DNA of 50,705 bases from Candidatus Borkfalkia avistercoris (lineage in GTDB: Bacteria > Bacillota > Clostridia > Christensenellales > Borkfalkiaceae). The DNA lies in assembly GCA_019115995.1 (NCBI GenBank), contig DXCL01000029.1, forward strand, positions 1 through 50,705, given 5' to 3'. A program made the position numbers and the translations under genes. Positions within the stretch are counted from its first letter, which is position 1. Each line of letters begins with the position of its first letter. The notes beneath the pieces were generated by a model. That model was not told the DNA's origin and did no database searches. It was given only the letters and a program-made list of their open reading frames with translations. Positions 3,628 to 43,508 of the stretch are shown here, one piece after another.

Positions 3628-4524
3628 TTATATGATGCCCTCCGTGAACTCTTCCGCGTCGAAAAGTTGCAGATCGTCGAGTTTTTCGCCCGTGCCGACG
3701 AACACGACGGGTATTTTCAGCTCGCCGCACAGCGACACCACGAACCCGCCCTTCGCCGTTCCGTCGAGCTTGGTCAAAACGATGCCGTCGAGGTCGACCG
3801 CCTCGTCGAAGATGCGCGCCTGCGACATCGCGTTCTGCCCGGTGGTCGCATCGAGCACCAAAAACTTATAAAAATGCGCTTCGGGATAATCTCTCTCCAC
3901 GACGCGGTTCATCTTTTTGAGCTCTTCCATCAGATTCGCCTTGACGTGCAGCCGCCCCGCCGTGTCGACGATGACGACGTCCGTCTTTTTCGCCTTGGCG
4001 GAAGAGATCGCGTCGAACACGACCGCGGAAGGGTCGCTCCCCTCTTCGTGCTTGACGATGCGCACCTTCGCCCTGTCTGCCCAGACGGAAAGCTGATCCG
4101 CCGCCGCCGCGCGGAAGGTATCCGCCGCCGCCACGGTAACGCTCTTTCTCTCCTTGACGAAATAATTGGCGAGCTTGCCGATCGTCGTCGTCTTCCCGAC
4201 TCCGTTCACCCCGACCAACATGATGACGGCGGGATATTGTATCTCGGGCGTCTCCGCCTCGCAGAGGGTGTCCTCGATCACGTCTTTGAGAAGGTCGATG
4301 ACAAACTCTTTGTCTTTGAGCTTTTCCGCCTTCGCTTCCGCGCGGATCTGGTCGATGATGTCCTCCGCCGTCGTCACAGAAATGTCCGCTGAAATGAGGA
4401 TCTCCTCCAATTCGTCGTAAAAATCGTCGCCCAGCTTGTTTTTTGCAAACAGCGCGGAAAGTTTGGACGAAATGTTGTCCTTCGTCTTTTTCAGCGCGCC
4501 GATGATTTTACCGAAAATTCCCAT
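3628..4524 (-). CDS. ftsY: Signal recognition particle receptor FtsY
   Basis: A 298-residue SRP-receptor GTPase that docks SRP-ribosome complexes at the membrane. The N domain (about 1-95) is followed by the G domain with the P-loop GVNGVGKTTT (105-114), DTAGR, and TKLDGTAKGG; the C-terminus is FTEGII. The acidic A domain of enterobacterial FtsY is absent, as in most Gram-positives. A longer reading exists upstream, but the ATG at 4524 has a perfect AGGAGG seven bases before it, and the upstream codons translate a repeat element. It belongs to the plsX-rnc-smc-ftsY neighbourhood but is separated from smc by a methyltransferase gene and a 440-bp gap. Confidence 0.95.
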   Translation of the reverse strand: MGIFGKIIGALKKTKDNISSKLSALFAKNKLGDDFYDELEEILISADISVTTAEDIIDQIRAEAKAEKLKDKEFVIDLLKDVIEDTLCEAETPEIQYPAVIMLVGVNGVGKTTTIGKLANYFVKERKSVTVAAADTFRAAAADQLSVWADRAKVRIVKHEEGSDPSAVVFDAISSAKAKKTDVVIVDTAGRLHVKANLMEELKKMNRVVERDYPEAHFYKFLVLDATTGQNAMSQARIFDEAVDLDGIVLTKLDGTAKGGFVVSLCGELKIPVVFVGTGEKLDDLQLFDAEEFTEGII

Positions 4525-4542
4525 AAAACCTCCTACCTTGTT

Positions 4543-4952
4543 CACACATTTTGTTTTGAGCTGACAAAACAAAATGTCGTGATTTTGAGGGCGACACCGC
4601 CGCGCGCCGCAAAGCGGCTGTCGGCGTTTTCCCCCTCTTTGCGCCCTTTTTAGGGGCACACATACTATGTAAGGGCGCAAATTCACCCTCTTCCCGTAAG
4701 GCAAAGCGTTGCCTAATTGAGTGAAAAAGCAAAAAGCGTCGTTTTTGCTTTTTTCGCATGATTATTTAAATAATTTAAGGCGCGTTTGAAAACCACGCTT
4801 TTCAAAAAGCGCACTCGATTTGCCGCACACTTGCGGTCTCAACGGGTGAATGCGGCGCGCATGTTATGGCGTGCCCTCAATAAGCGCGCCGCAGAGGGCA
4901 GCGCCCTAAACTCACGGAAAATCGCAGGCGTCAGCTTGCCGAGATTTTCGTG
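4543..4952. repeat. Head-to-head composite of two hairpin-rich repeat units (copy A)
   Basis: This fills the gap between the methyltransferase stop and the ftsY start. Unit A1 (minus, 4543-4753) and unit A2 (plus, about 4778-4952) point away from a central palindrome ATTATTTAAATAAT (4761-4774). Each unit has, in order: a hairpin P0 (A1 4724-4753; A2 4785-4806), a CACTC/GGGTG pairing enclosing a short hairpin, a long stem P3 (A1 4639-4646 with 4673-4680; A2 4851-4860 with 4884-4893) whose loop carries GTGTGCCC or GCGTGCCC then YYAAWAA, and a terminal hairpin with loop TCAGCT (A1 4546-4577, 13 perfect pairs) or a related loop (A2 4912-4952). A2 at 4809-4907 differs from 18151-18249 at 5 of 99 positions by hand alignment. 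The family is not recognised; no coding potential. Confidence 0.8.
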
Positions 4953-4967
4953 ATATGTCTGCACAAC

Positions 4968-5906
4968 TCATTTTTCACGAACCGAGATGTTTCGTTCGTA
5001 AAACACCTTTCCGTCGTAGCCCTGAATGCGCTTATCCGTTTCGGCGCGCTCCAACCGCTGGCGCGCCCATACGCAGTATTGCTCGTTCGCCTCTATGCCG
5101 AAATACCTTCTGCCCAGCTTTTTCGCCGCCACGGCAGACGTTCCCGAACCCAAAAACGGATCGAACACGAGATCGCCCCCGTTCGAGCTCGCCAAAATAA
5201 GCTTTGCGTACAGCTTTTCCGGCTTTTGGGCGGGGTGCGCCGTGTTTTCGGGCATAGACCAAAAGGGGATCGTTATATCGTCCCAGAAATTTGACGGGCA
5301 CGTATCGCGGAAGTTGCCGAGCGCCGTTGCCTGCCAATCTTTCGGAACGCCGCCCTCGCGATAGGGCGCGACGACGCGGCGGCGTATTTTGACCGCGTCG
5401 AGGTTGAAAGTATGTTCCTTTCCCTTGACGGCGAACCAGATGTCTTCCATGCCGTTTTTCCAGTTCGCCTTGGCTCCTCTGCCCTTTTCTCTCTGCCAGG
5501 TGATGCGGTTCATCACGGTGAAAAACTCGCCGAGCACCCTGCCGACGATCAGGCTCGAACGCCAGTCGCAGCACACATATACGCTGCCGCCCTCTTTCAG
5601 GAGCGGCGCCGCAAGGGAGAGCCAACGGCGGGTATACGCCTCGTATTCCGCTTCGCTCGTTCTGGAAAAGATCTCCCCGCCGTAATTTTTGGTGAGGTTG
5701 TACGGCGGATCCGCGATGATGAGGTCGGCAAACCCGCGGGGCAGAAGGGGCATGACGGAAAACGTATCCCCCAGCGCGACCGCGTTTTCGATCTGCCCGA
5801 CGCAGCCGACGGGCGCGCGCAGGCGGAGGCATTCCGCAAGATATGCTGCGCCCTCCGCGGCGGTGGTGTCCATCGTTCTGTTTTTTGCCGCCTTTTCCCC
5901 TTTCAT
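4968..5906 (-). CDS. Beta-class site-specific DNA methyltransferase (orphan)
   Basis: A 312-residue S-adenosylmethionine-dependent DNA methylase. The catalytic motif DPPY (66-69, in IIADPPYNL) comes first. The cofactor motif DPFLGSGTS (249-257) is near the C-terminus, after HPAQKP (224-229). That order defines the beta class and fits N6-adenine or N4-cytosine methylation. No restriction gene adjoins it, so it looks like an orphan regulatory or protective methylase. It sits 37 bp after smc. The start is uncertain: the ATG at 5906 lacks a clear ribosome site, and the ATG at 5873 is a plausible alternative. The target sequence cannot be inferred. Confidence 0.85.
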   Translation of the reverse strand: MKGEKAAKNRTMDTTAAEGAAYLAECLRLRAPVGCVGQIENAVALGDTFSVMPLLPRGFADLIIADPPYNLTKNYGGEIFSRTSEAEYEAYTRRWLSLAAPLLKEGGSVYVCCDWRSSLIVGRVLGEFFTVMNRITWQREKGRGAKANWKNGMEDIWFAVKGKEHTFNLDAVKIRRRVVAPYREGGVPKDWQATALGNFRDTCPSNFWDDITIPFWSMPENTAHPAQKPEKLYAKLILASSNGGDLVFDPFLGSGTSAVAAKKLGRRYFGIEANEQYCVWARQRLERAETDKRIQGYDGKVFYERNISVREK

Positions 5907-16504: not shown

Positions 16505-17854
16505 ATGTCCGAAAACAATCAGTACGAAATTTTATGGAAGGCGATAAGGGAGAATTTGGAGCAGACGCTCGCGCATATCACGTTTACCACTTATATTTCC
16601 GGGTTGAAACCCGTAGACATCGACGGTACGCGCATCGTGCTGAAAACGGACACCGAGTTTTTTGCAAAGACCATCGTGCACCAGCTCAAAGACAAGATTA
16701 AAGCGGCGATCGCAAAGGCGGACACAGGCATTACCGACTTTGTGCTCATGGTGGAGGGAAACGACGAGCCCTATTACCGCCCCGCGGAGGAGGAATTCGA
16801 CGACGATTACACCCCCGTTGCGGTGGATCCGCGCTTTACCTTCGAAAGCTTTGTTGCGGGCAAAAGCAATGAATTCGTGTTCGCGGCGGCGCAGTCCGTC
16901 GCGAAAAACCCCGGCGCGGTTTTCAACCCCCTCTATATCTACGGCGCGTCGGGGCTGGGCAAAACGCACCTTCTGCAATCCATCGCAAATTATATCAACC
17001 TGCATAAGCCCTCCCTGCGCGTGCTTTACACGGCGTGCGAGAAGTTTATCAACGAATTCATCGACTCGATCTACCTCAAAGGAGGCAACAGCCGCGATCT
17101 GCAGGCGAAGTTCCGCAACCGCTACCGCAACGTAGACGTGCTGCTCATCGACGACGTGCAGTTCCTCGCCAACAAACAGGCGGTGCAAGAGGAGCTTTTT
17201 CACACATTCAACGCCCTGCAATCGGAAAACAAGCAGGTGGTGCTCACCTCAGACGTGCCGCCCAAGGAGATCGCAACGCTCGAAGAGAGGCTGAGAACGC
17301 GTTTCGAAGGCGGGCTGATCGCAGACATTCAGCCGCCCGACGCGGAAACGAAAATCGCCATTTTAAAGCAAAAGGCGTTTGAGCGAAAGGCGGTGATCCC
17401 GCCCGACGTGCTCGAATTTTTGGCGCGCGACTCGGGTACGGACGTAAGGACTTTGGAAGGCAGGCTCACGAAGGTCGTTTTTGCGAGCAAACTGCACGAA
17501 CAGCCCGTTACGATGGAGCTCGCGGCAACGGCGCTCCGGGAAGCGGTGAGCGAGGAGCATGAAACGGTTACTTCCGACAAGATCATCGGCAGCGTTTGTT
17601 CCTTTTACAAGATCAGTCGGGAAAATCTTTTGGGCAAGAGCAAGAAAAAGGAGCTCGTGCAACCCAGGCAGATCTGCGCGTACCTGATGTGCGAGATCAT
17701 GAACATTCCCCTCGTTTCCATCGGCGAAGCGCTCGGCGGCAGAGATCACACCACCGTCATTCACTCGCGCGAGAAGATCACCAACCTGATAAAAGTAAAC
17801 GACCGCATCGCAAAAGAAGTGGAAGACATACGCAACATGATTTTGAAACAATAG
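16505..17854 (+). CDS. dnaA: Chromosomal replication initiator DnaA
   Basis: 449 residues with all four domains. Domain I is 1-85; a short acidic linker follows (88-108). The AAA+ domain has Walker A GASGLGKTH (147-155) and the Walker B region VDVLLIDDVQFLA. The C-terminal DNA-binding domain ends with GRDHTTVIHSREKI. It binds oriC and melts it in the ATP form. The ATG follows AGAGGTAATT. The gene is followed not by dnaN but by a 450-bp gap filled with a repeat element and then mnmG. Confidence 0.97.
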   Translation: MSENNQYEILWKAIRENLEQTLAHITFTTYISGLKPVDIDGTRIVLKTDTEFFAKTIVHQLKDKIKAAIAKADTGITDFVLMVEGNDEPYYRPAEEEFDDDYTPVAVDPRFTFESFVAGKSNEFVFAAAQSVAKNPGAVFNPLYIYGASGLGKTHLLQSIANYINLHKPSLRVLYTACEKFINEFIDSIYLKGGNSRDLQAKFRNRYRNVDVLLIDDVQFLANKQAVQEELFHTFNALQSENKQVVLTSDVPPKEIATLEERLRTRFEGGLIADIQPPDAETKIAILKQKAFERKAVIPPDVLEFLARDSGTDVRTLEGRLTKVVFASKLHEQPVTMELAATALREAVSEEHETVTSDKIIGSVCSFYKISRENLLGKSKKKELVQPRQICAYLMCEIMNIPLVSIGEALGGRDHTTVIHSREKITNLIKVNDRIAKEVEDIRNMILKQ

Positions 17855-17861
17855 AAAGGGG

Positions 17862-18295
17862 GTTCACGCAAAAAGTTCACGCATTTCTCGCGCAAAGGCG
17901 CTGCGAAACGCCGTGAGTTTTAGGAAAACCCCAACGTTCGCCGTTTTGTAAAACGGCTCCGCGTTCGGATTTTTCCTCTTTGCCGCTTTTTAAGGGCTTA
18001 CACTATTATAGATGCGGCAAATTCACCTTTCCTGCCAAAGGCCGCGCGTCGCGGCAAATCGGGGGCTTTTTCCGAAAAGTGCGATTTTCGGAAACGCAAG
18101 TGATTATTTAAATAATTTAAGGCGCGTTCCGAAATTGCTATTTTGGATAAGCGCACTCAATTTGCCGCATACTTGCGGTCTCAACGGGTGAATGCGGCGC
18201 GCATGATACGGCGTGCCCTCAAAAAGCGCGCCGCAGAGGGCAGCGCCCTCAAAATCACGGATAAAAGCGTTATCAGCTTAACGCTTTTATCGTGA
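17862..18295. repeat. Head-to-head composite of two hairpin-rich repeat units (copy B)
   Basis: Same architecture as the element before ftsY. Unit B1 (minus, about 17877-18091) and unit B2 (plus, about 18124-18295) flank the identical palindrome ATTATTTAAATAAT (18103-18116). Stems: P0 18072-18078 with 18085-18091 and 18129-18135 with 18140-18146; P2 of B1 18041-18046 with 18050-18055; P3 17979-17986 with 18014-18021 and 18193-18202 with 18226-18235; terminal hairpins 17877-17916 and 18255-18295, the latter a 12-bp stem with loop TCAGCT. B1 stems differ in sequence from A1 stems while keeping pairing. The B2 terminal hairpin ends 10 bp before the mnmG ATG and abuts its GAAAGG ribosome site. 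A short direct repeat GTTCACGCA occurs at 17862-17870 and 17875-17883. Confidence 0.8.
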
Positions 18296-18305
18296 AAGGC
18301 TTTTT

Positions 18306-20177
18306 ATGGATAACATCTTTTACACAACCGAATACGATGCCGTTGTGGTCGGCGCGGGGCATGCGGGCGTTGAAGCCGCCCTCGCCCTCGCCCGCACGGG
18401 CATAAAGACGGTGATGCTGACGCTCAACCTCGACAGCATCGCTTTTATGGCGTGCAATCCTTCCATAGGCGGCACGGCGAAGGGACACCTCGTGCGGGAA
18501 ATAGACGCGCTCGGCGGGGAAATGGGCGTCAATGCCGACAAGACCGCGCTTCAAATCCGCATGCTCAATACGGGCAAGGGCGCGGCGGTGCAGAGCCTGC
18601 GTTCGCAATCGGACAAGCACGCATACCACGCGCGCATGAAGCAGGTGCTCGAAAACACAAAAAACCTCTCCATTTTGCAGGGCGAAGCGGCGGAAATACT
18701 CGTGGAAAACGGCAAAGTTTCGGGCGTAAAGACCGCCGTGGGCGAAGTGATCTCGGCAAAGGCGGTCGTACTTGCCACGGGCGTATACCTGAAAGGCGAG
18801 GTCATTGCGGGAGAATACAAGCAAAGTTCGGGGCCGAACGGCTTTGCGCCCGCGAACCTTTTAACGCAAAACCTCATCGACCTCGGCTTCAACGTGCGCC
18901 GCTTTAAAACGGGCACGCCCGCGCGCGTGGACGGGCGCACCATAGACTATTCCAAACTCGAAATACAGCGGGGCGAAACGGATATTTACCCATTTTCCTT
19001 CCTTTCCAAACGGGTGCCGCAAAAGCAGAAGCCCTGCTATCTGACCTATACCAATCAGAAGACGCATGAAATTATCCGCGCCAACCTGCACCGTTCCCCC
19101 CTCTATTCGGGCGTGATCAAGGGAACGGGCCCGCGCTACTGCCCTTCCATAGAAGATAAAGTGGTGCGCTTTGCGGACAAGGAGCGGCACCAGATCTTTT
19201 TGGAGCCGGAATGCGCAGGCTCGAACGAGGTTTACGTGCAGGGTATGTCCTCTTCCCTTCCCCACGACGTGCAGCGGGAGATGTACCGTTCCATAGAGGG
19301 GCTGGAAAACGTGAAGATCATGCGCTATGCCTACGCCATCGAATACGACTGCATCGACACCCTCGACGTGTACCCCACCCTCGAATTCAAAAAGATCGAA
19401 AACCTCTACACGGCGGGGCAGATCAACGGAACGAGCGGATATGAAGAAGCGGCGGCGCAGGGACTCATTGCAGGGCTGAACGCCTCGCTCAAACTCAGAG
19501 GACAGCCATCCGTCGTATTGCGGCGGGATCAGGCATATATCGGCGTGCTCATCGACGACCTCGTAACAAAGGGCACGAACGAGCCGTACCGCATGATGAC
19601 CTCGCGCGCGGAGCACCGCATACAGCTGCGGCAGGACAACGCGGACTTCCGCTTAACGGAGATCGGCTATCGGGCGGGGCTTGCGACAAAAAGGCGGTAC
19701 ACGCGCATGTTGGCGCGCAAAAAACAGGTGGAGGAGATCCTCGGCGAGCTGAACGGGCGCGTTTCGCCCAAAGAAGCGGAGGGCTTTATGCGCGAACACG
19801 GCTTTGACACCCTGTTCGGCGGCCTGAGCTATGCAGACATGATACGCCGCTCCATAGACCCGCAGGACATCATAGAGCATTTCGGCATTCTCAAAGGCAG
19901 GAGCCGCGCGGATATAGAGACCGCCGTCATCGACGTAAAGTACGAGGGCTACATCAGGCGCGGGCTGGAACAGATAGAAAAGGCAAAGGCGCTGGAAGAT
20001 AAAAAACTGCCAACCGACATCGATTACGAAAAGATAGACGGCCTGCGCTTGGAGGCGCGGCAAAAACTCAACAAAATACGCCCCGAAAACCTCGGGCAGG
20101 CGGGGCGCATTTCGGGCGTGAACCCCGCAGACATCGCCGTATTGATGGTGTACCTTTCCTTAACGCATAAAAAATAG
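18306..20177 (+). CDS. mnmG: tRNA uridine-5-carboxymethylaminomethyl modification enzyme MnmG
   Basis: 623 residues, the usual MnmG/GidA length. The N-terminal FAD site is VVVGAGHAGVEAALA (13-27), followed by the family motifs MACNPSIGGTAKGHLVREIDALGGEMG and YCPSIEDKVVRF. With MnmE (not here) it modifies U34 of certain tRNAs. The ATG at 18306 follows GTGAAAGG. mnmG is normally near the origin with mnmE, jag and rnpA; here its neighbour is dnaA. Confidence 0.97.
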   Translation: MDNIFYTTEYDAVVVGAGHAGVEAALALARTGIKTVMLTLNLDSIAFMACNPSIGGTAKGHLVREIDALGGEMGVNADKTALQIRMLNTGKGAAVQSLRSQSDKHAYHARMKQVLENTKNLSILQGEAAEILVENGKVSGVKTAVGEVISAKAVVLATGVYLKGEVIAGEYKQSSGPNGFAPANLLTQNLIDLGFNVRRFKTGTPARVDGRTIDYSKLEIQRGETDIYPFSFLSKRVPQKQKPCYLTYTNQKTHEIIRANLHRSPLYSGVIKGTGPRYCPSIEDKVVRFADKERHQIFLEPECAGSNEVYVQGMSSSLPHDVQREMYRSIEGLENVKIMRYAYAIEYDCIDTLDVYPTLEFKKIENLYTAGQINGTSGYEEAAAQGLIAGLNASLKLRGQPSVVLRRDQAYIGVLIDDLVTKGTNEPYRMMTSRAEHRIQLRQDNADFRLTEIGYRAGLATKRRYTRMLARKKQVEEILGELNGRVSPKEAEGFMREHGFDTLFGGLSYADMIRRSIDPQDIIEHFGILKGRSRADIETAVIDVKYEGYIRRGLEQIEKAKALEDKKLPTDIDYEKIDGLRLEARQKLNKIRPENLGQAGRISGVNPADIAVLMVYLSLTHKK

Positions 20178-43214: not shown

Positions 43215-43238
43215 TTATGTCTTTTTTCTCCCTCAAAC

Positions 43239-43504
43239 TCACGGAAAACCGCAGGCGTCAGCTCGGAAACGAGTAAATTCAAATACTTTTTCGAACGGGC
43301 AAAAATGACACTTTTTGCCCGTTCACTCAATTTGGCAATGCTTTGCCTTACGGGGAAAGAGTGAATGCGCGGCATTGTATATTTATGTGTGCCCTTAAAA
43401 ATGCCGCGCAGAGAGAAAATCCCGCCGCTCGGCGCAACGCCGACGGCGGGTTGTCTTTTAAATCGCTGTAAATTGCAGGCGGCATCCCGCCGAAATTTAC
43501 GCGA
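43239..43504 (+). repeat. Single hairpin-rich repeat unit with adjoining fragment (copy C)
   Basis: One complete unit in plus orientation. Stems: P0 43293-43305 with 43312-43324 (13 perfect pairs); P1 CACTC (43324-43328) with GAGTG (43359-43363) enclosing GGCAA/TTGCC; P3 43366-43375 with 43401-43410 (10 perfect pairs) with GTGTGCCC (43387-43394) and CTTAAAAA in the loop; an extra double hairpin 43421-43450; and a terminal hairpin 43463-43504. It is preceded at 43239-43267 by a fragment matching the A-copy terminal region (4911-4939) at 26 of 29 positions. It fills the gap between the converging lipoprotein and rseP genes. Stem sequences differ from copies A and B but pair in the same places. 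Confidence 0.75.
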
Positions 43505-43508
43505 GGCA

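Follow-up and report, generated by a model that had tools for sequence, protein, structure and literature searches.

Organization of the locus

The window, the whole 50,705-nucleotide stretch of DNA analysed here, is contig C14 of the 1.77-Mb draft genome of Candidatus Borkfalkia avistercoris (G000). At positions 4541-4954, the gap that separates ftsY from an N6/N4 DNA methylase gene is occupied by two inverted copies of one unit of about 210 bp, one on each strand, which are joined head to head at ATTATTTAAATAAT (Table 1). Outward from this joint, each unit comprises hairpin P0, the stem P1 (CACYC/GRGTG) around P2, and the strand GTGAA; then come P3, whose large internal loop surrounds GTGCCC, P4 (GAGGG/CCCTC), and the terminal P5 hairpin. 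The head of the unit is AT-rich, and its tail is sharp, coinciding with the end of P5 (...GTGAA). The methylase gene (4971-5906) lies between SMC and ftsY; judged by eye, some species have the gene and others are without it.

The initial annotation had described this gap as two half-units, each a series of hairpins, around a central palindrome, with a ribosome site next to ftsY. All of these features are present, as are the five units that it counted in the window: two upstream of ftsY, two between dnaA and mnmG, and one at a third site. All five are matched by the covariance model R2, which includes P1 and P3 and replaced an earlier model (R1) without them. The observation is correct, and larger in extent than was stated. 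The palindrome was taken to be fixed; it is actually the joint of two unit heads, and its sequence varies between copies. The claim that the gap has no coding potential holds in substance, except that a chance open frame (3628-4704, minus strand, TTG start) extends out of ftsY and covers most of the left unit. The second site (17854-18306) is perhaps near the replication origin.

Table 1. Features of the repeat units at the three sites in the window
Feature	Position	Strand	Remarks
Left unit, core P1-P5, points towards ftsY	4541-4723	-	R2, 180 bits
P5 terminal hairpin, left unit	4542-4582	-	Arms 4546-4558 and 4565-4577, loop TCAGCT
P5 of left unit, unpaired G of minus strand	4578	-	
P4, left unit (GAGGG...CCCTC)	4587-4637	-	
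P3, left unit, GTGTGCCC in internal loop	4638-4681	-	
P1 around P2 (4699-4714), left unit	4684-4723	-	
P0 hairpin, left unit	4724-4753	-	Inverted repeat I3
Head-to-head joint, palindrome ATTATTTAAATAAT	4761-4774		
P0 hairpin, right unit	4780-4811	+	Loop CCACGC
Right unit, core P1-P5	4812-4954	+	R2, 105.9 bits
P1 around P2 (4822-4837), right unit	4812-4848	+	
P3, right unit, GCGTGCCC in internal loop	4851-4893	+	Inverted repeat I2
P4, right unit, short form	4895-4907	+	
P5 terminal hairpin, right unit	4912-4953	+	Unpaired G at 4916
Second site (dnaA/mnmG), left unit	17876-18065	-	R2, 92.5 bits
Second site (dnaA/mnmG), head-to-head palindrome	18103-18116		
Second site (dnaA/mnmG), right unit	18154-18296	+	R2, 104.7 bits
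Third site, remains of another P5 upstream of unit	43230-43263		BLAST match
Third site, single unit	43324-43505	+	R2, 163.7 bits

Copy number and distribution

Further copies in the same genome far exceed what chance would give, with 62 matches by BLAST and 61 by R2, and the palindrome, allowing one mismatch, occurs at 23 sites (1 for a reversed control). Within the genus, R2 matches were found in 37 of 40 genomes; three genomes (G002, G005, and G062) have none and two (G004 and G033) have two each. These counts per genome are lower bounds, and six of the 40 genomes hold at least 67 units. In G000, a unit lies less than 150 bases from the start of contigs C10, C17, C18, C21, C26, C34, and C45; the repeats therefore probably interrupt the assembly, and the counts given may be too low.

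Across the order, R2 found matches in 11 of 200 genomes. Six of these, G000 and five genomes of genus g26 (best score 98.8 bits), belong to one family; of the others, three belong to family f6 and one each to families f29 and f14. These last five score only 22-42 bits (31.9 bits for the single f14 match). Those of f6 and f29 are taken as relatives because the copies read keep the order of the hairpins, their stems being unrelated. R2 matched none of seven genomes from two further genera of the G000 family. At two loci of the g26 genome G232 (L350 and L354), P5-type hairpins stand in direct orientation on both sides of units. A class-wide search of 391 genomes, in which strict filters let few candidates be scored, gave matches in G000 and G064 only. 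The element was not found in phages or plasmids by distant BLAST, nor was the P5 pattern found in viral contigs. Matches to the P5 pattern in Rhizobium, Thermoactinospora, an actinomycete MAG, and Dokdonella are taken as chance, since R2 finds no unit in these four records.

None of 4227 Rfam families matches the window at the gathering cut-off, and a permissive scan of 4400-5000 gave only sub-threshold matches, the best scoring 20.3 bits in a family whose cut-off is 48. At E-value level, the loci of seven relatives returned known RNAs (rRNA, tRNA, and T-box) and otherwise matches below the families' cut-offs. In the literature on Borkfalkia and on such repeats, no title about this repeat was found among those listed. 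The units form a real, large repeat family, found under no name in Rfam or the literature searched.

Genomic placement and orthologous sites

Copies are mostly intergenic: 10 of 162 elements lie inside long reading frames, genes being called simply by reading-frame length. The 143 elements scored for both neighbours lie between tandem (88), divergent (29), or convergent (26) genes. No orientation bias relative to genes was found, one-way arrays running with the genes in 10 cases and against them in 19 (p 0.14).

Upstream of ftsY, full-length units are present in 16 of 30 genomes, remains only in 2 (a P5 in G034 and a weak match of 51.8 bits in G019), and no model match in 12. Among the last are G001, in which a sequence profile finds a remnant, and G011, whose FtsY is 99% identical. 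In the dnaA-mnmG gap, G000 and G008 each hold two units at the same point, built of different modules, and none of four other genomes (G013, G034, G026, and G011) holds one. Such presence and absence at orthologous sites suggests that the units are mobile. Fifteen pairs of occupied and empty sites, compared by eye, revealed no target duplication, with flanks only 72-95% identical and 2 of the 15 'empty' sides (L204 and L238) holding hairpins of the family; the available comparisons are wider than strain-level pairs, and they caught no insertion event.

Joining of units

The 122 adjacent unit pairs spaced at most 250 bases apart comprise 51 joined head to head, 71 joined head to tail, and none joined tail to tail. 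This census drew on 288 model matches at 115 loci, 3 being dropped where both strands of one hairpin were matched. Random joining would place one quarter of the pairs tail to tail; the nominal p of 6e-16 is overstated because many loci were picked by the P5 pattern and some are orthologous. In a second method, applied to 311 clusters including redundant locus copies, the sole tail-to-tail case was a low-scoring overlapping match in two copies of one locus. In a 205-unit subset, 28 of 35 head-to-head gaps measure 85-90 nt, and 29 of 35 head-to-tail gaps measure 41-56 nt.

The orthologous arrays at L215 6163-6593 and L113 7740-8528 have a head-to-head pair in common (95% and 95%), outside which one of them carries two additional units. 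Array structure consequently cannot be explained by central insertion alone.

Covariation and the nature of the pairing

The stems covary beyond shuffle controls in two alignments. In the first, of 19 units and 40 pairs, with a structure set by hand after inspecting that alignment, 96.3% of cells are paired (77.2% in shuffles), the covariation score is 0.542 (0.192 in shuffles and at most 0.156 for slid structures), and 29 of the 40 pairs have changes on both sides (18.1 in shuffles). In the second, of 40 units aligned without structure, with 26 pairs predicted from that very alignment, 97.6% of cells are paired (73.9% in shuffles) and the score is 0.623 (0.211); double changes occur at 20 of the 26 pairs, as against 17.0 in shuffles, 11 of 500 of which reach 20. 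A measure of further pair types showed no excess over shuffles in either alignment (80/500 and 453/500).

RNA stems tolerate G-U pairs and do not tolerate A-C. Pair types were counted in the best 150 of 233 Borkfalkia matches, in an alignment fitted to the model, a procedure with a general bias towards pairing. P3 has 1299 Watson-Crick, 8 G-T, 9 A-C, and 21 other cells; P5 has 2269, 12, 11, and 98, respectively, with 95 of the other cells at one A-G step. Pooled, the two stems have 20 G-T and 20 A-C against 3568 Watson-Crick cells, whereas the control stems of 12 tRNAs, parsed by script from fetched loci, have 229 Watson-Crick, 18 G-U, and no A-C or other cells (Fisher p 2e-12 and 8e-5). Because G-T is as rare as A-C, pairing in P3 and P5 looks like DNA-level pairing; a looser G-U/A-C count on P3 (203:209) agrees, but includes false stems. 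The remaining stems have 50 G-T and 43 A-C in P1, 11 and 13 in P2, and 30 and 10 in P4. On the outward strand, wobble exceeds A-C at a single pair in P1 (42:7) and a single pair in P4 (22:0); another P1 pair is reversed (G-T 2, A-C 35), perhaps through misalignment. The excess at the two pairs is compatible with RNA and equally with the outward strand as single-stranded DNA, and is a weak sign that this may be the folding strand.

These counts bear on the proposal that the unit is a functional structured RNA, transcribed outward from a promoter in the AT-rich head, with head-to-head pairs sharing a two-way promoter and tail-to-tail pairs selected against as antisense. The outward-only arrays, the conserved loops of P3 and P5, and the two wobble-rich pairs would all agree with such an RNA, as would the presence, ahead of P0, of a -10-like hexamer in 102 of 197 units, a feature of about 33% of mononucleotide shuffles. 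However, these hexamers also occur on the reverse strand (80/197), and the promoter signal is weak and two-sided. Moreover, wobble pairs in P3 and P5 are no more frequent than A-C, the window has no Rfam match at the gathering cut-off, and three of the 40 genus genomes have no match. The initial annotation had also considered a structured RNA transcribed in both directions, against which count the missing wobble signature of P3 and P5 and the lack of a fixed relation to neighbouring genes. A functional RNA thus seems unlikely.

The tail hairpin

P5 combines variable arms with constant details. One unpaired purine stands on its 5' arm, after four basal pairs, in 139 of 145 readable units (G in 96, A in 43; five more of the 150 units are gapped), and in 40 of the 44 readable units among 55 from G000. 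The hexaloop of the same 145 units is TCAGCT in 75, ACAGCT in 37, and TCAGCA in 7. Units with the same P3 arm can carry different P5 arms (for example, 12 arms among 15 units). In 200 distinct tails, conservation drops past GTGAA(C), with a small rise six bases on (0.45 bits). In 789 kb there are 243 P5-like hairpins, compared with 4 after mononucleotide shuffling; some occur apart from any full unit, for example the one upstream of ftsY in G034. In one variant, P0 near the head-to-head joint is replaced by two hairpins, one short and P5-like, the other elaborate and GC-rich (L156 1767-1801, L167 4476-4510, L168 5226-5260, and L172 1866-1900, and upstream of ftsY in G012 and G028).

BIMEs are said to be bound by chromosome proteins, and the units might similarly be passive or architectural palindromes that such proteins bind and in which template switching at replication, rather than selection on a folded strand, keeps the arms perfect. 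Arms that are nearly perfectly Watson-Crick paired on both strands, intergenic positions, and the lack of gene bias are what this account would lead one to expect. Template-switch repair, however, should erase the one-sided bulge purine and the asymmetry of the P3 loop, and both persist while the stems change. Passive palindromes are accordingly a decidedly doubtful explanation.

Candidate enzymes and known systems

Y1 transposases (PF01797) have matches in 23 of 40 genomes, 22 of them over the cut-off. No match was found in 8 of the 16 genomes with at least 40 units, and G000, a ninth unit-rich case, has Y1 only as a broken fragment below the cut-off, whereas three unit-free genomes have 3 to 7 matches each. 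Y1 and unit number correlate at -0.34 (Spearman, 40 genomes, unit counts of at least 67 entered as 67). Reverse transcriptases (PF00078) occur in 4 of 40 genomes, none with at least 40 units, and a retroelement was rejected. TnpB-like genes (PF07282) exceed the cut-off in only 1 of 40 genomes (15 including weak matches), which counts against an omega-RNA of TnpB/IscB as far as TnpB is concerned. Each single absence is weakened by the 66-96% completeness of these genomes, which are MAGs. An autonomous partner beside the copies was likewise discarded, the 25 largest clusters of neighbouring frames looking like ordinary orthologues (FtsY, SMC, and Ffh were recognised by eye) or non-coding frames; no integrase was seen by eye among them.

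IS200/IS605 elements have subterminal hairpins with an unpaired base and insert without target duplication. The units resemble them in the hairpin with an unpaired base and may share insertion without target duplication; they differ in having several hairpins and no transposase gene, and their copies are not tracked by Y1. Mitochondrial double-hairpin elements are also similar, and a literature search on them returned nothing relevant among the titles listed.

The units would work most like REPINs or attC hairpins. REPIN/REP-RAYT systems are interspersed intergenic hairpins arranged in inverted doublets and tandem clusters, with compensatory stem changes and proposed movement by a transposase in trans (PMC3116915, PMC3733652). 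Inverted doublets (the 51 head-to-head pairs) and compensatory changes are equally found here. In contrast, a REP is a 20-40 bp palindrome one end of which bears an unpaired GTAG or CGTC, and tail-to-tail dimers of REPs are known (PMC3733652); the unit here has several hairpins over about 210 bp, no GTAG or CGTC consensus at the end of the 200 distinct tails, and no tail-to-tail pairs. A REPIN or BIME family moved by RAYT, a Y1 transposase, would account for the doublets, tandem clusters, and compensatory changes that also mark REPINs (PMC3116915); with no Y1 in half of the unit-rich genomes, several in unit-free ones, a negative correlation, and no foot, it is very improbable. The BIME-like or IS200/IS605-like nature first suggested is not supported by descent: Y1 fails to track the copies, their ends bear no GTAG/CGTC tags, and tail-to-tail pairs were not found.

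The BOX, RUP, and SPRITE repeats of pneumococcus are also folded intergenic repeats of unsure mobility, and BOX is modular, but in the order boxA-boxB(n)-boxC rather than in divergent arrays of whole units; the term 'compensatory' is absent from that source (PMC3049150). The attC hairpin, as described in PMC2727003, acts as folded single-stranded DNA, is variable in sequence and conserved in structure, and has extrahelical bases on one strand that direct strand choice. Three extrahelical bases are described there (PMC2727003), compared with one bulge purine in P5, and no integron or gene cassettes were seen beside the copies examined.

A MITE moved by a DDE transposase through terminal inverted repeats is scarcely credible: head-to-head dimers do have inverted P5 ends, copies are intergenic, and unit-free sites exist, but single units, whose ends are unlike, are the commonest cluster (78/163), the dimer 4543-4952 has unlike P5 stems at its two ends, and the 15 comparisons by eye, two not truly empty and all with diverged flanks, showed no target duplication.

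A proposed mobile element of folded DNA

The preferred reading, to which a probability of roughly 0.58 is assigned, is that of a mobile, non-autonomous DNA element with a folded single strand that a protein recognises. Its observed base consists of strongly covarying hairpins, a 3' boundary that is sharp, copies by the dozen that are mostly intergenic, orthologous sites with and without the unit, joining only head to head or head to tail, a fixed unpaired purine, and a conserved P5 hexaloop. The initial suggestion of a mobile, non-autonomous element built of hairpins is supported by the many copies, the covarying stems, the occupied and unoccupied orthologous sites, and the lack of an Rfam match above cut-off in the window.

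Under this reading, a protein supplied in trans would have the folded outward strand, more likely as DNA than as RNA, as its substrate. P5 may be the recognised end, by analogy with the hairpins that serve integron integrases or Y1 transposases. Units would attach by their heads to existing units, giving rise to divergent arrays, and the loss of units could leave solo P5 hairpins. A bolder version, possible but tentative, is that the units are mobile elements of a new kind, consisting of nothing but folded DNA. Each would be a cassette of about 210 bp, free of genes, that follows a strict joining rule as it stacks into divergent arrays, with stems rewritten arm by arm and a tail hairpin (extrahelical purine, WCAGCW loop) that serves a putative single-strand recombinase.

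BLAST has difficulty detecting gene-free repeats that conserve their shape and vary in sequence. Here, such repeats fill intergenic gaps across a gut genus and lie at many contig ends. Their joining rule and fixed bulge offer testable handles on how they move and point to a putative enzyme that reads the shape of DNA.
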